From Singulisphaera sp. (GTDB lineage: Bacteria; Planctomycetota; Planctomycetia; Isosphaerales; Isosphaeraceae): a DNA stretch of 45,890 nucleotides. This document shows, piece after piece, positions 5,932 to 45,716 of this stretch. The notes under the pieces were generated by a model. The model was not told where the DNA came from. It worked only from the letters and a program-made list of their open reading frames with translations, and made no database searches. Position 1 is the first letter of the stretch; the number at the start of each line of letters is the position of its first letter. Location of the stretch: contig DAIDJG010000048.1 in the NCBI GenBank assembly GCA_027451445.1, forward strand, positions 1-45,890, in the 5' to 3' direction. The position numbers and the translations under genes are program-made.

Positions 5932-6088
5932 CGATTCCGCTCCCGATCAGAAAAAGCGTGGGGCGCTGTGGTAGCAAACTCAACGAAATCTACCCGCTTC
6001 GCGAGCGCAAAGCTACCGGCTACCTGGCGCTTCAACCGTCGGGACGGGGGGCGCCTTGGAGCGTCTCGCAATAGCGTCGCGCACAGCC

Positions 6089-6253
6089 GGGAGGGCGAGG
6101 CTCCGTCCGAGCCAGCCTTGTTCGGAGGACGAGTCTTCGAGTCCTACGAACATCGCGTGTGACGGGCCCTCCCGCGTGGCGGCTCGCGATGATCCACCGG
6201 CTCGAAGACTCTCCGGCGGATCAAGGCTGGCTCGGACGGAGCCTCGCCCTCCC
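6089..6253. repeat. Cloverleaf-like palindromic repeat, copy 1
   Basis: Perfect 32-bp inverted arms at 6089-6120 and 6222-6253 (GGGAGGGCGAGGCTCCGTCC... and its complement). Inside are hairpin A (6120-6151: 11-bp stem with one mismatch, loop GAGTCTTCGA), a spacer hairpin (6152-6190: ATCGCG pairing with CGCGAT) and hairpin B (6191-6222: 11-bp stem with two mismatches, loop TCGAAGACTC, the exact reverse complement of loop A). The whole folds as an outer stem with three arms. A second copy lies at 45409-45567. The rest of the 5932-6286 gap shows no gene. The element lies between two minus-strand genes. Confidence 0.9.
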
Positions 6254-6286
6254 GAATTGCGTCCACCGCTCAATGGTTCAACGCTG

Positions 6287-15971: not shown

Positions 15972-16014
15972 AAGGGGGGCTGGCTCAGAGTCTTCGAAGG
16001 TGCCAGTCCCCCTT
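15972..16014. repeat. GC-rich hairpin repeat carrying the GAGTCTTCGA loop core
   Basis: Stem AAGGGGGGCTGGC with GCCAGTCCCCCTT (13 bp, one G-T pair) around a 17-base loop containing GAGTCTTCGA, the same 10-mer found in the loops of the cloverleaf repeats. It lies 25 bases past the stop of the minus-strand gene 16040-17146 and is followed by TTTC in that direction, so it may also act as its terminator. Confidence 0.75.
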
Positions 16015-33198: not shown

Positions 33199-34137
33199 CT
33201 CAGAAAGGGCGCGGAAACTTAGGCAATTCCAGTTCCCGCCTTCTTGGTGAGGCGACGCAGCATCAAGTGGATCATCGCTAGATGAATCATCGCCTCACCG
33301 GTCTCGTTCCAATATTCATAGTGCTTGCTCAGGCGTCGATAGTTTGACAGCCATGAGAAGGTCCGTTCGACGACCCAACGTTTCGGCAGCAGCTTGAACC
33401 CTTTCACATCATCGTTGCGTTTGACGATCTCCAGGATCCACTGACACAGTGAAGAGACCCAACCGATCAACTTCCCTGCGTAGCCACCATCGGCCCAGAC
33501 ACGAACCATGCGGAGCCATTTCCCCTTGGCTTGGGCTTTGGCAAAGACCAGTTTGGCGCCGTCACGGTCTTGGATGTTCGCCGAGTGGACGACGACCACG
33601 AGAATGAGACCGAGCGTGTCCACCAGGATATGTCGCTTGATGCCGTTGATTTTTTTTTCCCGCGTCGTAACCCCGCGTGCCGCTGGTTCGAGTTCCCTTG
33701 GTGATCTGGCTGTCGATGCTGCCGGCACTGGGCTCGGGCTCTTTGCCAGCTTGTACCCGCACTTGACGTCGTAAGGCGTCGTGAATCTCCTCCCACAAGC
33801 CACTCCGGCGCCACTGATGGAAGTAATCTCGCACGGTTCCTTCGGGAGGAAAATCATGCGGTAAGGCGTGCCACGCACAGCCGCTGGTCAAGACATAAAA
33901 GATGGCGTTGAGCACCTCCCGGAGGTCGGTGGTCCGTGGTTTCCCCGCTGGGACTGGAGGCGGCAACAAGGGCTCCAAAATGGCCCACTGTGCATCGTTC
34001 AGGTCACTGGAGTAGGGCTTACGAGAGGGCGCACCCATGCCGAGGACTCCGTTCTGTGTGATGTCGATCCTTGCCGCAGTTAACCTAAACGCTCAGGCCA
34101 TGTCTAGATGAACTACATTTCCGCGCCCTTTCTGAGA
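33199..34137 (-). mobile_element. IS5-family (IS427-like) insertion sequence
   Basis: 939 bp bounded by 19-bp perfect terminal inverted repeats CTCAGAAAGGGCGCGGAAA at 33199-33217 and its complement at 34119-34137. It carries one transposase in two overlapping frames on the minus strand. No clean target duplication is visible at the ends, in line with rearranged flanks: a truncated RDD gene on the left and a palindromic repeat on the right. Confidence 0.85.
33219..34038 (-). CDS. IS5-family transposase in two frames, joined at an A9 slippage site
   Basis: The first frame (34038 to about 33655) starts [20 protein letters not shown] and has the N-terminal DUF4096-type domain ([37 protein letters not shown]) and the first catalytic Asp in GSIDSQ. 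The second frame (about 33655 to 33219) gives [15 protein letters not shown], the second Asp in [10 protein letters not shown] and the Glu in [20 protein letters not shown], completing the DDE triad. The frames meet at nine consecutive A on the coding strand (33650-33658). Loss of one A in the transcript fuses them, so transcriptional slippage or a frameshift is the likely mode of expression. Both halves are undamaged, so it may still be active. Confidence 0.88.
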
Positions 34138-36787: not shown

Positions 36788-36891
36788 ACTCCCTCCCCCC
36801 TTGTGGGGGAGGGCCGGGGTGGGGGGTGTCGTACCACCCGTGGCCGTTCGCCCCCCCACCCCAACCCTCCCCCACAAAGGGGGGAGGGAGT
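36788..36891. repeat. C/G-rich double-hairpin palindrome, intergenic copy
   Basis: Arms ACTCCCTCCCCCCTTGTGGG... and their near-complement flank a short spacer; each arm is itself a hairpin (CCTCCCCC with GGGGGAGG). It lies between the first two EPS genes and is homologous to the copy inside 40833-44339 at 41867-41968. Confidence 0.85.
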
Positions 36892-39238: not shown

Positions 39239-40795
39239 ATGAGTCTGCGACTTCGTCTCCTTTATGGCACCGACCGCCTCCTCGCCGTGGCCCTGGCGAG
39301 CGTTCTCGTGGGCACGACGCTCGCCTTCGGGGGCGCTGTCTGGTGGGCACGGCCGGTATTGGCCTTGCTCACGGCGGTGTTCGTCGTGCTGGGGATGGTG
39401 CGTACGCTGCTCGAAGGAAAACTACGCATCCTGAAGAGCCCCCTGGCGTTCTTCGGCCTGCTGGCGCTCGGTCTGGCCGCGGTTCAGCTCGCACCCTTGC
39501 CGGCCAAGGCAGCACGCGTCCTCTCGCCCCGGTCGCGAGAGGTCTACACCATGGGCACCCTGCCCAAGCTCGCACTCGCGGACAACCCCGCGCTCGAATT
39601 GCCCGAGACGCCGCAGAACCGCTCGCCGGTGACACTCGACCGAGCGGCCACCTTGCGCTGGCTGGCGGGCGGCCTGGTCTGCCTCGCCCTGTTCTGGGGC
39701 GTCTCCCACTTCGCCGACCGCCTCGGGCGGCTCTACCTGGTGTGGGGCTGTATTGTCGCGGCGTTCGCGCTGAACACGGTTTTTGCCCTGGTACAGATCC
39801 TCTGCCGGGCCAATGGTCTCTTCGGATTCATCGAGCCGGGCAACGGACCGATCTGGGCCCCTTCGTATGAGGATTTGCTGAACACACCGAACTCGGTCGT
39901 CCTGCGAGGCGCCGGCGGTGAGACGCTCCCCGACTGGGCCACGTACGTGCCGGAGCGGACGTTCCAGCTCGGCAGCATGCTCGGCGGCCCCGCGGCGTAC
40001 CTGGCGCTGGGGTCGATCGGACTGCCACTGACACTGGCGCTCATGCTTCAGATCATGGCGCCGAGGGGGAGTCGCGAAGGGCTGTCGGCGAGGCTCGGCG
40101 AGTCGGGCCAGGGGAGCCTGGTGCTCTTGCTGGCCGGTTTGCTCGTGGCCTCGGGGGTGCTCGTGGGGCTGATCGCCGGCCCCTGGTTGAGTCTGCCGTT
40201 CCTCATTGCGTTGCTGATTGCGGGGATCCCCTGTGCCCGGCCGACCGGCCTGCGCTGGACGGCCGTGGCGATGACATTCCTGGGGGTGTCGGCCGTGGGA
40301 TTGGGGATTGGTTGGGGCGTGCTGGCGGACCGGACGCCCAACCTGGTGCCCGAGGTTCGGGTCGAAGCCCCGAGCTCGCTGGCACGAACCTGGTCGGATA
40401 CGTGGAAGATCGTCCGCGACTTCCCAGTGCTCGGGACAGGGCTGGGGAGCTTCGCGACGGTCCACCCGTACTACAAGGCGCAGGACCAGGCCCAGACCAC
40501 CGCGCTCAGCAGCGTGGCGCAGTGGGTTTCGGAAACCGGGCTGATGGGCCTGGCGCTGCTGTTAACGGCCGGGCTCTGGTCACTCTCGCGGCTGCGGGTG
40601 TCCGTGCTGCGGGTCGGGTCGGCCGACCGGGCGCTCGTGTTCGGCTTGATTGGAGCAGCGCTGGGCTTTAGTCTGTACTCGACGGTTTACTGGACCGTCG
40701 AGCTCGCCGCGGTTGCCGTGTCCGTCAGCGCCCTGGGTGGAACCTGGAACCGCTGGCTGGCGGGGGGCACCGACCTGTTCATCGAGCGTGCATAA
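39239..40795 (+). CDS. Wzy/O-antigen-ligase-like membrane protein
   Basis: 518 residues, about 10-12 membrane helices (LLAVALASVLVGTTLAFGGA, LVLLLAGLLVASGVLVGLIA, WTAVAMTFLGVSAVGLGIGW). The Wzy_C signature is in the second half: TWSDTWKIVRDFPVLGTGLG, SFATVHPYYK and the following WVSETGLMGLALLLTAGLWS. The large extracytoplasmic loop (about 220-250) with EPGNGPIWAPSYEDLL is where such enzymes hold catalytic residues. It probably polymerises repeat units or ligates the chain to its acceptor in the periplasmic leaflet. It starts 18 bases after the Wzc-like gene and ends 37 bases before the FHA-like gene, clearly in one operon. Whether it is polymerase or ligase cannot be told from sequence. Confidence 0.88.
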   Translation: MSLRLRLLYGTDRLLAVALASVLVGTTLAFGGAVWWARPVLALLTAVFVVLGMVRTLLEGKLRILKSPLAFFGLLALGLAAVQLAPLPAKAARVLSPRSREVYTMGTLPKLALADNPALELPETPQNRSPVTLDRAATLRWLAGGLVCLALFWGVSHFADRLGRLYLVWGCIVAAFALNTVFALVQILCRANGLFGFIEPGNGPIWAPSYEDLLNTPNSVVLRGAGGETLPDWATYVPERTFQLGSMLGGPAAYLALGSIGLPLTLALMLQIMAPRGSREGLSARLGESGQGSLVLLLAGLLVASGVLVGLIAGPWLSLPFLIALLIAGIPCARPTGLRWTAVAMTFLGVSAVGLGIGWGVLADRTPNLVPEVRVEAPSSLARTWSDTWKIVRDFPVLGTGLGSFATVHPYYKAQDQAQTTALSSVAQWVSETGLMGLALLLTAGLWSLSRLRVSVLRVGSADRALVFGLIGAALGFSLYSTVYWTVELAAVAVSVSALGGTWNRWLAGGTDLFIERA

Positions 40796-40832
40796 CCTCA
40801 GGACGTGCCTCAAGGAGGAGACCGTCGCTACG

Positions 40833-43800
40833 ATGCCGGAAACCGCCTGCCTCCATATCCAGGCTTCCGAGACCGACCCGATCCGGGTTGTGCCGTTGCC
40901 TGGCCTCTCCGTACGCATCGGCCGGGCCCCGTTCTGCGAGGTCCGGCTGACCGAGCCCACCGTGGCGGAGGAAGAATTCCAGTTGCGCCGACGAGGCGCA
41001 TCGTGGCACTTGGTTCCCGTCGCATCGCCGGGATCGGTGACAGTCGACGGGCGCGTGGTCGATCGGCCTCGTCCCATCGCTTACGGTGTGCCCCTGCGGG
41101 TGGGCAACCTTTCGTTGACCTTGAGGCCGGTGGGCGCATCGCCTCCGGAATGGACCGCGACGGCGTCGGCGGCCTCAACGGTATCGAAGGCCATCCCCGC
41201 GCATGCCGTCGAGAGTGCCGTTCCGCGGCTCCCGCTCCGCCACGAGCGTGACGCGAGGAAGCACCGGTCGCGCCCGACGGTGGAGGAACGTGAGAAGCAA
41301 TGGGGAGCACGCTGGAAGGCCGCTGGCGAGCGTTTGCGAACCAGCGCGGCGACTGTCGCACCGCCGCCCCCTGCACCGGAGCGGCCGCGGGCTGCGGAGC
41401 CTCTGGCGGGTTGGAGGGCGGCGGAGCTTCCTCAACGCGATCAACCCAGGGCGCGGAAGGCCGCCCGGCCGCTGGACTCGGCCGCGTTTCCATCGGTCCG
41501 AGCTGTGGACGTTCCGCCCGCGTATCCTCCGGTCTCCAAAGTCACGCGGCCGGCCCAGGCGCCGAAGGCGGGGCGCGTGCGGGCTGCCGAGGAGGCGAAA
41601 GGGCGGGTGCCGGTTGTCGAGGCGATCGCGCCTGTAACGCCCGAAGCAGCGAATGGCATCCACGACGCTGCTGCAACTTTGGAACTGCTGTCTACGGACC
41701 ACGACGGTACGGAGGGCACTGCGTCTCTGGAACTGGCCAATAATGAGCCGGCCTCGCTGATGCAACCTTTCGCACCCGGAGATGTCGAGAGCACGGTGTC
41801 AGAATACGCCGAGCTTGCATCCGATTCGGGTCCGCAGTCTTCACTGTACGTGACCAGCCCTCTGCCTCCCTCCCCCCTCGTGGGGGAGGGCTGGGGTGGG
41901 GGGGCTGGGACTGGCGCAGCGTCACGGGGAACCCCCCACCCTAACCCTCCCCCACAAGGGGGGAGGGAACCGGAAGACGCGGCGACGGGCGCATCGGGAC
42001 TGCTTTCCGATCTTCGGGCCGCCTCACCGGAAATCGCTCCACCGCTCGACCTGCCTCCCGCACCCCTCACCCCGCCGCTGTGCGGCGACCCTCTCCCACA
42101 AGGGGAGAGGGGTGATTTTGCATTGGCGACGGGCAAAGACGAATTCCACACCTCTCCCCTTGTGGGAGAGGTCGGCCCTCAACGAGGGCCGGGTGAGGGG
42201 TGCGGGCAAGACGATCCGGAGACGTCTTCTGTCGGCAACGATGTTTCCGAAGTAAGTCCTCGGGGAAATCAAGCCCAGAAGCTCGCCAACGGTTTTCGAA
42301 GGGTCCTGGGGCTTTTCGTTCAGTTTTCGGACGAGGCGAATCCGTCGAACCCCGAGAATGGCGAAGCGATCGAACCTGCGCGGGCCAAGCGACGCTCCCT
42401 CTTCGGTCGCAGACGGGCCGAGTCAGATAGAGCGCAACATGTCTCCGAGCTCGACGCAAGTCCTCAGACCGCGGAGACTGCGAGCGATTCGAGCCGGGCC
42501 AGTCTCCAAGACAACCTCTCGTCAAGGGATCCCGCATCGGGGTCTGAAGTCGCACCCCCGCCCCAACCAGCCGCCAAACCCAATAACTCCCCCCCTTGGG
42601 AAGGGGGGGTTGGGGGGGTGGGGAGTGAGCGCACGCATACGGCTGGTCCCGTTACGCCGCAACCGTTAAGCGCAGGAGATCGGCTCACGGCTGAATCGCC
42701 CACAGCGGACGGCCAATGCCCACCCCCCCTACCCCCCCTTCCCAAGGGGGGGAGTTATGAGGTTCCTCCGCTTCCGACGGGCGTGCCGTCAAGCGATACC
42801 GTGCGCGATCCAGGCGTCAGCCCGCCTCAGACCGCCCCAATCGAGATCTCGAATCCTCCCACACCCACCGCCGACATCCCCACCACTCCAATCGTCGAGG
42901 CCCTTTCCCCCGACACCGCCCCTCCCGAGCCGGCCCCCTCGCACGACCTCTTCAGCCCCCAAACGTGGCAGGCGCATACCGGCGGCTGGGCCCACGAGGG
43001 CCTCGCAGTCTCCTCCGGAACCTGGGAGCACGTCGTCGTCCGCCATTCGCCCCGGACCATCGACGACCCAACCAACGCCCGGCCCACCCCGACCGAACAC
43101 TGGCCGTCCGCGCGTGATATCCTGGCCGCCTGCGCTGCGGCGAAACCCGCAGAGCCGCCGAGAGCCGCGCCCACCGCCCGCAAGCCGCGGCCGAAACGCC
43201 CTGCGCCGACGGTCGGCCTGGAGCCGAATGCCTGGACTGTGCCGCTCTGGCTCGGTTGGCTCCCCATGACACTCTCAGCACTGGCGGCGGGCATCTTCGG
43301 CGTCGCCCTGGCCTGGACGTGGGCGCAAGAGGCCAAGACGACGGCCATCCTCGCCAACCACCTGGCACGCAGTACACCGGGAGCCAAGTTCCCCCTCGAA
43401 CCCGAAGAACTCAGCGCACCCTCCTGGTGGCGCGGAACCGCAGGCGGCCTGACCCGCCGGGCCATCGCGCTGGCGTCGTCCGACCGCCCGGACATGCAGG
43501 AAGCCCAGACCGTGTTGCGAACCGCACTCCAGGCTTCGCCCCTGGAGCCCGCCGCACGGCTTGCCTGGGTCCACCTCAATCCGGGGGGTGACGAGAAAGC
43601 AGCGCTCGTGCTCAGCGCGGGGCTCAGCCGCGACGTGCTCTCGCTGGCCTGGACCGGCCGGCAGTTGCTCAAGAATGGGCAGAAGGACGCGGCACTCCGG
43701 GCCTATCAGGCCGCCCTCGAACTCGCCGCTACGGCCGACGTGGCGCGGTTCGCCGACCCCGTCTACAACGAAGACGACCCGCAAGCTCGCCGCTACTTCC

Positions 43801-44339
43801 TGCCCGGTGAAGACCTCATCGGCCAGGTCGTACGCGACATGGCCGCGCAGACCGCCTGGACGTTCAACGACTGGTCCGAGGCCCTGCCCCGCTACGCAGT
43901 GCCGTCCCTGGTGGCCGCCCGTCTGCTGCGCGATGGCGACCGCCTCGCCTCCGACACCGCCCTCGAACGGATCACCGGCAGCGACGAGAGCCAGCTTCCG
44001 CCGCCAGGCGTCTCCCCAGCCGTCCACATGGCCGCGAGGGCCGAGGCACACGCCCTCAAGGGCGACTGGGGACAGGCCCAGACGCTCTACCAGCAGGCGA
44101 TCGATCTCACGACCCTGGACCGCGTCAAGCGCTCCTGGCAGGTCAATCTCGCGGATGTCGCCCTCCGGCTCCACGACGATTCCGCCCGGCAGAAGGCACT
44201 CGACGCGGCGAACAATCACGACCCCAACGACCCGATCACCCTGCGCGTCGTCGAACTCCAGAAATCCGGCGGCGAACGCACCGTGAATCGGGACCGCGAC
44301 GCGGGCGTCGCACGCACCAGCCTGGAAAAGCAACGCTGA
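40833..44339 (+). CDS. Large FHA-like/transmembrane/TPR protein of the EPS operon
   Basis: 1168 residues from ATG 40833, with AAGGAGGAG about 12 bases upstream; the frame is open further upstream but overlaps the Wzy-like gene. Residues about 5-99 resemble an FHA domain (VRIGRAPFCEVRL with Gly30-Arg31, SVTVDGRVV, PLRVGNLSLTL), but the usual Ser and His of the phosphothreonine pocket are replaced (TVAEEEFQLRR). Residues 100-800 are low-complexity Pro/Ala/Glu linker containing three inserted palindromes (41867-41968, 42057-42206, 42583-42758). One membrane helix lies at about 805-832 (PMTLSALAAGIFGVALAWTW), then a TPR-like helical domain to the end (LRTALQASPLEPAARLAWVH, AALRAYQAALELAATADVAR). 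A scaffold or regulator of the EPS machinery seems likely. I know no named family. Confidence 0.75.
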   Translation: MPETACLHIQASETDPIRVVPLPGLSVRIGRAPFCEVRLTEPTVAEEEFQLRRRGASWHLVPVASPGSVTVDGRVVDRPRPIAYGVPLRVGNLSLTLRPVGASPPEWTATASAASTVSKAIPAHAVESAVPRLPLRHERDARKHRSRPTVEEREKQWGARWKAAGERLRTSAATVAPPPPAPERPRAAEPLAGWRAAELPQRDQPRARKAARPLDSAAFPSVRAVDVPPAYPPVSKVTRPAQAPKAGRVRAAEEAKGRVPVVEAIAPVTPEAANGIHDAAATLELLSTDHDGTEGTASLELANNEPASLMQPFAPGDVESTVSEYAELASDSGPQSSLYVTSPLPPSPLVGEGWGGGAGTGAASRGTPHPNPPPQGGREPEDAATGASGLLSDLRAASPEIAPPLDLPPAPLTPPLCGDPLPQGERGDFALATGKDEFHTSPLVGEVGPQRGPGEGCGQDDPETSSVGNDVSEVSPRGNQAQKLANGFRRVLGLFVQFSDEANPSNPENGEAIEPARAKRRSLFGRRRAESDRAQHVSELDASPQTAETASDSSRASLQDNLSSRDPASGSEVAPPPQPAAKPNNSPPWEGGVGGVGSERTHTAGPVTPQPLSAGDRLTAESPTADGQCPPPLPPLPKGGSYEVPPLPTGVPSSDTVRDPGVSPPQTAPIEISNPPTPTADIPTTPIVEALSPDTAPPEPAPSHDLFSPQTWQAHTGGWAHEGLAVSSGTWEHVVVRHSPRTIDDPTNARPTPTEHWPSARDILAACAAAKPAEPPRAAPTARKPRPKRPAPTVGLEPNAWTVPLWLGWLPMTLSALAAGIFGVALAWTWAQEAKTTAILANHLARSTPGAKFPLEPEELSAPSWWRGTAGGLTRRAIALASSDRPDMQEAQTVLRTALQASPLEPAARLAWVHLNPGGDEKAALVLSAGLSRDVLSLAWTGRQLLKNGQKDAALRAYQAALELAATADVARFADPVYNEDDPQARRYFLPGEDLIGQVVRDMAAQTAWTFNDWSEALPRYAVPSLVAARLLRDGDRLASDTALERITGSDESQLPPPGVSPAVHMAARAEAHALKGDWGQAQTLYQQAIDLTTLDRVKRSWQVNLADVALRLHDDSARQKALDAANNHDPNDPITLRVVELQKSGGERTVNRDRDAGVARTSLEKQR
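41867..41968. repeat. In-frame palindromic element 1 inside the FHA-like gene
   Basis: 102 bp (34 codons). Arms TCCCTCCCCCCTCGTGGGGG... and their near-complement, same family as the intergenic 36788-36891 copy. Translated as PLVGEGWGGG and HPNPPPQGGR. Confidence 0.85.
42057..42206. repeat. In-frame palindromic element 2 inside the FHA-like gene
   Basis: 150 bp (50 codons). Perfect 16-bp outer stem CCCGCACCCCTCACCC with GGGTGAGGGGTGCGGG; inner stems CCTCTCCCACAAGGGGAGAG with its near-complement, plus small side hairpins (GCCGCTGTGCGGC; CGGCCCTCAACGAGGGCCG). A different family from element 1. Confidence 0.85.
42583..42758. repeat. In-frame palindromic element 3 inside the FHA-like gene
   Basis: Arms ATAACTCCCCCCCTTGGGAA... 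(from 42583) and their near-complement ending at 42758, separated by about 100 bases of spacer. A third family, by its arm sequence. The visible span (176 bp) is not a multiple of three, yet the frame stays open. Confidence 0.8.
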
Positions 44340-44380
44340 CGATGACCCGGCCCGCCGGATCCCCTCAAGGACGAACCGAC

Positions 44381-45346
44381 ATGGCGACCACCTCGGAGAC
44401 TTCGCGAAACCCCGCCTTGCTCGACCTCCTGCGCGAGGCGTGGCGCCGCCCCGACCAGCGCGTCACCCTCCTCGGTGCGCTCGCCGGAGGGCTCCTGCTC
44501 GGCCTGATGTACCTCGCGAACCTGCGCCATTTCGTCTACGCCTGGACGACCGACGACAACTACAGTCACGGCTTCCTCGTCCCGTTGATCAGCCTCTATT
44601 TCGCCAACCTCGCCGCCCAGCGCGGCCCTGTCGAAGTGCGCTCGGGAGTCGGACTCGGTGTGAGCCTGCTGGGCGTGTCGATCGCCGGCCGGCTGCTCAC
44701 GGTTCTGGTGCCGGTGCCGTTCCTGGGCGACCTTACGCTCCTGCTGGGCATCGCGGGGCTGTGCTCTCTAGTCGCGGGCACAGCCGTCCTGCGCCGGTAC
44801 TGGTTCGCGATCTTCTTCCTGATTTTCATGGTCCCCTTGCCCATCGCCCTTTACACCGAGATCGCCTCACCGCTGCAAATGAAAGTCAGCGAGGTCGCCT
44901 CGCACGTGCTGAACCTCACCGGGCTGCCTGTGCTGCGCGAGGGCAACAAGATGACTCTCCCGGGCGGCACCCAGATGTTCGTGGCCGAAGCGTGCAGCGG
45001 AATGCGGCAACTCACCGGCTTCATCGCCCTCACGGCCGCCATCGCCTACGTGACGTGCCGCCCCGTCTGGTACCGCTCGATCGTCATCGCCTCGTCGATC
45101 CCCATCGCCATGACCGCCAACATCGCGCGCGTGGTCCTGACCGGCTACATCATGCACGCCAACCCTGCCTATGCGTCGGGCACGTTCCACACGGCGGAGG
45201 GCCTGATCATGATGGGCTTCGGGCTTGCGCTGCTGCGAGTTGAGTGCTGGGTGCTGGACCAGGTTGTCGCACTGTTTGAACCGGTGGAAGGCAATACGGT
45301 GAGTGAGCCATCATTCCCACGGTCCTCCGTGGGAATGCCGTCTTGA
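44381..45346 (+). CDS. Exosortase (EpsH/Xrt family)
   Basis: 321 residues from ATG 44381, with AAGGACG 8 bases upstream; ATG 44342 is an alternative that begins right after the previous stop. About eight membrane helices. The exosortase catalytic triad is intact: Cys205 in VAEACSGMRQL, Arg250 in MTANIARVV and His270 in GTFHTAEG. Exosortases are transpeptidase-like enzymes that cleave the PEP-CTERM or similar tail of exported proteins and are known to co-occur with EPS operons, as here. The N-terminal DDNYSHGFLVPLISLYF segment is also typical. No C-terminally sorted substrate lies in the window. The last codons (SFPRSSVGMPS) are encoded by a perfect hairpin (45314-45339), so the original C-terminus may have been altered. 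Confidence 0.95.
   Translation: MATTSETSRNPALLDLLREAWRRPDQRVTLLGALAGGLLLGLMYLANLRHFVYAWTTDDNYSHGFLVPLISLYFANLAAQRGPVEVRSGVGLGVSLLGVSIAGRLLTVLVPVPFLGDLTLLLGIAGLCSLVAGTAVLRRYWFAIFFLIFMVPLPIALYTEIASPLQMKVSEVASHVLNLTGLPVLREGNKMTLPGGTQMFVAEACSGMRQLTGFIALTAAIAYVTCRPVWYRSIVIASSIPIAMTANIARVVLTGYIMHANPAYASGTFHTAEGLIMMGFGLALLRVECWVLDQVVALFEPVEGNTVSEPSFPRSSVGMPS
45314..45339. repeat. Perfect 11-bp hairpin at the exosortase 3' end
   Basis: CATTCCCACGG, loop TCCT, CCGTGGGAATG. It overlaps the last codons and lies 7 bases before the end of the gene. It may act in termination or be a dispersed repeat that extended the reading frame. Confidence 0.8.
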
Positions 45347-45408: not shown

Positions 45409-45567
45409 GGGAGGGCGAGGCTCCGTCCGAGCCAGCTTTGATCCCGCGGCGAGTCTTCGAGCCGCGGAATCACCGCGAGCCGTCAGCCGCTCCGCCCACG
45501 CGATGTTCCGATGACTCGAAGACTCGTCATCGGAACAAGGCTGGCTCGGACGGAGCCTCGCCCTCCC
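45409..45567. repeat. Cloverleaf-like palindromic repeat, copy 2
   Basis: 32-bp arms 45409-45440 and 45536-45567, equal to copy 1 (6089-6253) except one C-to-T change that leaves a G-T pair. Hairpin A at 45440-45471 (loop GAGTCTTCGA, 11-bp stem, one mismatch) and hairpin B at 45505-45536 (loop TCGAAGACTC, perfect 11-bp stem). The stems differ in sequence from copy 1 but pair. The rest of the 45347-45716 gap holds no gene. Confidence 0.92.
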
Positions 45568-45716
45568 GATATCTTCGAGCCCGAATAAACATTGTCGACA
45601 CGATGACTGCCCAGGCCCTAAGTGGTCCGTTTCACAAATAACGTCGTAGTTTCGACGGTCTCTTGGTAGAAGGAGGCGGGATCCAAGAAAATGCCGGCTA
45701 AGGAAAGGATGCCGCT

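Follow-up and report, generated by a model that had tools for sequence, protein, structure and literature searches.

Among DDE insertion sequences, the IS5 and IS630 superfamilies have MITEs that duplicate TA or TNA at the target. Repeats also accompany genes for Y1 transposases: TIRYT genes are flanked by a GGGGWSAS motif (Di Nocera et al. 2013, PMC3733652; also PMC6006769). A 2018 survey reported no REP-like sequence beside the genes of TnpA_REP subclass 2.1, and class 3 TnpA_Y1 with a CnGA foot has been reported in Planctomycetes (PMC6006769). The locus described here carries a ten-letter word at the apex of hairpins that belong to two families, both of which are MITE-like, gene-less elements of known kinds.

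The window, a stretch of 45,890 nucleotides from Singulisphaera sp., contains five exact copies of GAGTCTTCGA when both strands are counted, at positions 6131 (+), 6202 (−), 15988 (+), 45451 (+) and 45516 (−). By contrast, 0.15 copies were expected from shuffled sequences and none of 100 shuffles reached five. All five copies lie at a predicted hairpin apex, with DNA fold z-scores of −2.9 to −5.6, which bears out the original prediction that the 10-mer occupies hairpin loops. Its assignment of strands was also correct, with the word on the plus strand in the A hairpins (6131 and 45451) and its reverse complement in the B hairpins (6202 and 45516). The prediction had further counted five different hairpins. 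There are indeed five, but four of them come from a single inverted-dimer element, present as two copies at 6119-6152/6190-6223 and 45439-45472/45504-45537; the window therefore holds three independent elements. Finally, the stem at 15972-16014, which had been called unrelated, proved to be that of a degenerate copy of a genome-wide family, annotated family II. Written in full, this hairpin is AAGGGGGGCTGGCTCA-GAGTCTTCGA-AGGTGCCAGTCCCCCTT; no TIR2 frame, the terminal repeat of family II described below, was recognised around it. All three elements are intergenic. The features of the window are:

6060..6270, no strand: family I element 1, a degenerate TIR1-type MITE, with a left TIR remnant at 6060-6084 and a right end at about 6254-6270
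6060-6084: left TIR remnant AGCGTCTCGCAATAGCGTCGCGCAC, aligned by eye to the consensus TIR AGCGGTTTACGG.CGCGTTGCGCAC
6089..6253, no strand: inverted arms GGGAGGGCGAGGCTCCGTCCGAGCCAGCCTTG ... CAAGGCTGGCTCGGACGGAGCCTCGCCCTCCC around two hairpins (repeat search), a module widespread in relatives
6119..6152, plus strand: hairpin A, tip GAGTCTTCGA at 6131-6140 (word search, fold)
6190..6223, minus strand: hairpin B, whose tip (6202-6211) reads GAGTCTTCGA on this strand (word search, fold)
15972..16014, plus strand: degenerate family II hairpin GGGGGGCTGGCTCA-GAGTCTTCGA-AGGTGCCAGTCCCCC, tip at 15988-15997 (fold, family pattern)
45409..45568, no strand: family I element 2, of the 157-bp interior type (repeat search, extended alignments)
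45439..45472, plus strand: hairpin, tip GAGTCTTCGA at 45451-45460 (word search, fold)
45504..45537, minus strand: hairpin, whose tip (45516-45525) reads GAGTCTTCGA on this strand (word search, fold)

Directly upstream of family I element 2 is an ORF (44342-45346, plus strand) that by eye resembles an exosortase-type membrane protein. The window also holds another inverted repeat family, CTCCCTCCCCCCTTGTGGGGGAGGG, at 36789-36891, 41866-41968 and 42577-42764; the latter two copies lie inside the ORF at 40650-44339.

Counted across the whole genome (10.9 Mb in 622 contigs), GAGTCTTCGA occurs 356 times (171 + 185), versus 17 occurrences (12 + 5) of the reversed control word. Among 103 distinct contexts of the word examined in this genome, 101 lie in two hairpin families, 77 in family I and 24 in family II. 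The remaining two are the degenerate family II copy of the window and a single context in ordinary sequence. GAGTCTTCGA is therefore not common outside hairpins, the one pattern that the original prediction had named as contrary to it, and the claim survives. Overall, the observation of the 10-mer is sound and is stronger genome-wide than from the window alone. Literature searches with the GAGTCTTCGA string returned matches that, among those listed, were unrelated by title and abstract, and a search with the arm sequence returned no paper with a match.

The ten bases need not form an open loop. Read with its neighbours as C-GA-G-TCTT-C-GA-G, the apex may close through tandem G.A mismatches and a G-C pair around a TCTT tetraloop; the apex pairings proposed by the folding program partly differ from this closure. 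In CGAG-TCTT-CGAG, the CGAG to either side of the tetraloop fits the known YGAR motif.

To define family I, we used a pattern in which the flanks are fixed and the 30 central bases are free. This pattern matched 222 hairpins in the window genome and one in the control. The family is built of inverted hairpin pairs, with co-varying stems around a near-fixed tip. Among the matches listed, 94 of 100 family I hairpins had exactly GAGTCTTCGA at the apex. In these 100, which were picked by exact flanks and not by tip or stem, although many of the loci had originally been retrieved via GAGTCTTCGA, the mean minor-letter fraction was 0.6% in the tip and 29% in the stem, the latter falling to 9-11% inside one half-type. 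In a looser set of 74 half-units that included a few broken units, variation was 7% in the tip, 32-35% in the stems and 3% in the arms. Over 54 distinct sequences, 93% of the pair cells of the stem were paired and nine of ten pairs showed double changes. The covariation score was 0.571; shuffled sequences scored 0.200 and slid partners no more than 0.129. Half-types A and B supply part of the double changes, so these counts do not represent independent events. Pairing in the family I stem is preserved although its letters drift, and the apex hardly drifts. A loop-loop constraint between the left and right tips, which are mutually complementary, was considered; in the few copies with a changed tip, too few to decide on such a constraint, the partner lacked a matching change.

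Family I is present at high copy only in the window genome: in a survey of 40 relatives, none carried it at high copy. A search of plasmids with the family I element gave no match. The arm module, GGGAGGGCGAGGCTCC-NNN-CGAGCC, is widespread in Isosphaeraceae relatives as a short inverted dimer without tip hairpins. In one example (genome G042, locus L289), the module lies inside a TGTCCC...GGGACA frame. The window genome shares its family with genome G040, which matches Aquisphaera insulae in sequence, 48 of 50 60-mers tested from L317 being present in L208; A. insulae belongs to Isosphaeraceae (Planctomycetota).

Extended alignments revealed further conserved sequence outside the family I arms. 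Many family I copies have a 163-bp interior and form an element of ~265 bp with the terminal repeat AGCGGTTTACGG..GCGTTGCGCAC and a TA target duplication. This repeat, TIR1, reads (TA)SAGCGGTTTACGG.CGCGTTGCGCAC, with the TA duplication at YTAR. The ends AGCGGTTTACGG.CGCGTTGCGCAC occurred 144 times in the genome and once in the control. Among 24 TIR1 elements, TA flanked the left end in 18, the right end in 17 and both ends in 14, the left TA being absent from six; the base before the flanking TA was mostly a pyrimidine and the base after it mostly a purine. The 163-bp interior type thus has the terminal inverted repeats and the target duplication of a DDE-type MITE. Other family I copies occur in a different frame, and the 157-bp interior type has other flanks. 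Conversely, TIR1 ends also flank an interior of 207-225 bp with a different hairpin, ACACTAACCCGAAGCGCGAGCGAGG... (L356, L357, L361, L365, L371, L373 and L378). Frame and hairpin are therefore separable, one frame having at least two cargoes. Nested insertions, in which palindromic elements lie inside other copies of these elements, were also observed (L385, L386 and L380).

Family II in the window genome has a frame of its own. The pattern GGACTGGCTCC-N10-GGTGCCTGTCC, in which the tip is free, matched 148 hairpins in this genome and none in the control. The hairpin, GGGGACTGGCTCC-tip-GGTGCCTGTCCCC, lies mostly within elements of ~175 bp, of which the full form comprises the TIR GAGTCTGTCCC, the hairpin with tip GAGTCTTCGA, a second hairpin whose tip is around CGTCTTCGG, and then the TIR in inverted orientation. 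As in a MITE, terminal inverted repeats (TIR2; GAGTCTGTCCC ... GGGACAGACTC) were present; of 24 non-edge copies, 17 could be read at both ends. The flanking 3-mers were identical in 13 of these 17 TIR2 elements, 12 of them being TNA; 200,000 shuffles gave at most 11. Family II thus also has the target duplication of a DDE-type MITE, with TNA inside CTNAG. One family II copy has inserted into a TIR1 element of 220 bp, where TTA is duplicated, and a further copy of that TIR1 element shows the site empty (L380 versus L378).

The family II core is not confined to the window genome. Among the matches listed, it was found in other Planctomycetes (Schlesneria, Aquisphaera and uncultured members) as well as in Nitrospirota, including Nitrospira lenta, Acidobacteria and Aminicenantes; several of these hosts are metagenome-assembled genomes, such that single contigs could be misbinned. 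No family II hairpin was found in viral contigs. Across genomes, the arms are constant, in part by construction since the search pattern demanded them, while the tips differ: GAGTCTTCGA, GAGTCCGCGA, AGGTCTTCCT, ATTTCCGAAT, GCCGTCTGGC or a loop of 4-6 nt. In genome G012, the family II tip is mostly GAGTCCGCGA. Counts of this word there were 18 + 14 versus 12 + 19, representing no excess, and a second family with that tip is therefore absent from G012. In nine relatives, the sampled contexts of CGAGTCTTCGAG were family II or unrelated sequence only. Overall, neither G012 nor, in the contexts sampled, eight other relatives showed a tip common to two families and, as far as tested, the occurrence of one tip in two families is limited to the window genome. 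In a separate set of loci (L246-L264, from clean336 and YP3.bin26), the outer stem around the constant family II core varied by copy and was often perfectly palindromic, as in cctcgaacaaaatg/cattttgttcgagg and gctctgccaaaacg/cgttttggcagagc. This variation may reflect drift with compensation, correction of palindromes, or insertion into palindromes that were already there.

The G012 genome also contains a Y1 gene directly downstream of two family II hairpins. Using its protein as a query, related genes were found in 103 of 248 Planctomycetia genomes, and 29 of the best 30 loci (L325-L354) were included in an analysis of flanks. A family II hairpin was present within 600 bp of the RAYT gene at six of the 29 loci, and on both sides at one, although one of the six is the G012 query gene, which had been chosen for its hairpins. 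Hairpin density was eight in 32.8 kb of flank versus two in 173 kb of other planctomycete loci, with three further out at the same loci. Similarly, GGGGACA occurred 66 times in the 32.8 kb of flank versus nine times in 45.3 kb further out, and most loci of this one RAYT clade have the tag in their flanks. In many genomes, the boundaries of the genes of this clade are marked by AAAAGGGGACATTCTACTTTTT ~50 bp before the start codon and an inverted copy just after the stop codon. The family II core, GGGGAC[A/T]GGC[A/T]CC..., lies beside some genes of this RAYT/TIRYT-like Y1 clade in other Planctomycetes, and the family II arm, GGGGACAG, fits the GGGGWSAS motif. Proteins of the clade contain the Y1_Tnp domain and scored 82.8 bits (cut-off 80) and 77.7 bits against NF047646. 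The 218-aa clade has no C-terminal domain; a sub-threshold Bac_DnaA_C match was detected in a longer gene (L038).

The window genome itself has nine Y1 genes, one of which has an internal stop codon. None of the nine has a family II hairpin beside it, and GGGGACG, GGGGACA or GGGGTCA occurs near the gene at six of the loci. The original prediction had proposed to look for a transposase gene whose copy number tracks the word; with nine Y1 genes versus 356 words, no Y1 gene does so. No Y1 partner was found for family I. One Y1 gene that adjoins a family I element (L033:563-1093) has a YIxxQ signature, CGCCCCAAAGGGGC-type inverted repeats and, by eye, a Cas4-like ORF alongside; it was set aside as a driver because the CGCCCCAAAGGGGC repeats are its own. 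Class 3 TnpA_Y1 was also considered, and the CnGA foot was not noticed in the listed copies.

On balance, we consider it likely that GAGTCTTCGA is the apex of hairpins that are carried as cargo by two non-autonomous MITE-like families moved by DDE transposases, that the family II hairpin was once RAYT-associated and that its tip was transferred to family I. Terminal inverted repeats with TA or TNA duplications are the mark of DDE cut-and-paste and not of Y1 transposition, and we therefore read the elements as DDE-moved. According to this model, DDE transposases would act in trans on the terminal repeats and the hairpin apex would not be needed for cutting. The hairpins would be cargo, kept because they fold or amplified along with the frame. 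The family II hairpin would originally have been a RAYT-associated repeat that was then captured by a MITE frame in the window lineage. In this lineage, family I probably acquired the tip from family II in a single transfer. The tip would have passed from the widespread family before family I expanded, through gene conversion or a hairpin chimera; no intermediate of the transfer was seen. Thereafter, the stems would have drifted with compensation and the apex hardly changed. Recent shared origin alone does not explain stems that vary far more than the tip. We propose that the apex is near-constant either because the cap CGAG-TCTT-CGAG favours the folded hairpin or because the burst was recent. 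A search of part of the 622-contig assembly, the surroundings of TIR1 singletons included, turned up no autonomous element in which TIR1 or TIR2 ends accompany a DDE transposase. The window does contain an IS5-type transposase (33219-34038, minus strand), apparently frameshifted, with two overlapping frames (DUF4096 and DDE_Tnp_1) and ends GAGCT..CAGAAAGGGCGCGGAAA. It was discounted as the driver, since its ends differ.

Among the alternatives, CGAG-TCTT-CGAG could be an unusually stable DNA cap that both families reached independently and that favours a hairpin or cruciform. A TCTT with a closing G-C pair is also found in the second family II hairpin and in those of Schlesneria, and the fit of CGAG to the YGAR motif is in keeping with such a cap. 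However, identity over 12 bases is much to attribute to convergence, other hairpins in the window genome have unrelated tips, and this cap does not stand out in the Vienna DNA folds. We consider independent arrival unlikely.

It is similarly doubtful that the constant apex is the binding site of a single-strand-acting protein, Y1 (RAYT-like) or other, which would mobilise or process in trans any hairpin that has it, such that both families keep it. Such binding would account for a near-constant tip on co-varying stems, for an exact tip common to two families and for the family II hairpins that adjoin RAYT genes in other genomes. Against this, the tip changes between genomes while the arms stay, the target duplications are typical of DDE movement, family II hairpins adjoin none of the Y1 genes of the window genome, and tip sharing was not found in the relatives sampled. 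The behaviour of the family II arms and tips likewise fails to support the original suggestion that the constant loop is a protein recognition core. The proposed likeness to a REP/RAYT system was half right: the RAYT association is real for family II and the repeats are mobile, but the constant word does not appear to be a general recognition core and its carriers in the window genome look like MITEs.

We give little credence to a further possibility, that the apex is a transferable recognition tag on which a host or element factor acts in single-stranded or cruciform DNA, amplifying or maintaining unrelated MITEs that acquire it. If true, this would account for a single tip on two stems, in two frames, with a copy number in the hundreds. 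Finally, an RNA-level element, in which the hairpins would end or stabilise transcripts and the tip would be read at the RNA level, would suit the intergenic positions and the covariation but is very unlikely, as an Rfam search of the window matched no family, family I has the word on both strands, and mobility features already account for the copy number.

In the preferred reading, of hairpins carried as cargo in DDE-moved frames, RAYT/TIRYT palindromes and DDE-type MITEs, two kinds of bacterial repeat that are usually separate, come together in a modular system whose hairpin modules sit in exchangeable mobile frames. Should the RAYT clade fall within subclass 2.1, the system would also provide hairpin repeats for a Y1 group reported to be without REP-like neighbours (PMC6006769). 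With a constant tip on stems that drift and compensate, it can be tested whether anything acts on the hairpin, and what. If the tip was transferred only once, the two families offer an uncomplicated instance of mobile elements exchanging a module.

Of the known systems, canonical GTAG-tagged REPs and BIMEs resemble family I in being intergenic palindromes and inverted dimers with co-varying stems. Family I differs from them in that no GTAG or GTGG foot was noticed in the listed copies, the loop is constant and the stem variable, contrary to usual REPs, and target duplications are present. The TIRYT/RAYT repeats (PMC3733652; TnpA_REP subclass 2.1, PMC6006769) resemble family II: in both, Y1 genes are flanked by inverted repeats starting GGGGAC(A/T), a tag shared by the family II hairpins that adjoin six of 29 such loci, and in both the repeats reach moderate to high copy number and some are self-complementary. 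By contrast, the element that encloses the hairpin in the window genome has a TIR and a TNA duplication of its own, and the DnaA-like domain described at the C terminus in subclass 2.1 is missing from the 218-aa RAYT clade. The elements of the window genome also resemble DDE MITEs, being short and gene-less, with terminal inverted repeats, short target duplications, more than 100 copies of the TIR1 end and nested insertions. They differ from such MITEs in that the cognate transposase was not found in the part of the assembly searched and, in their structure, in that the interiors are modular hairpins common to frames, with two frames having one hairpin tip.
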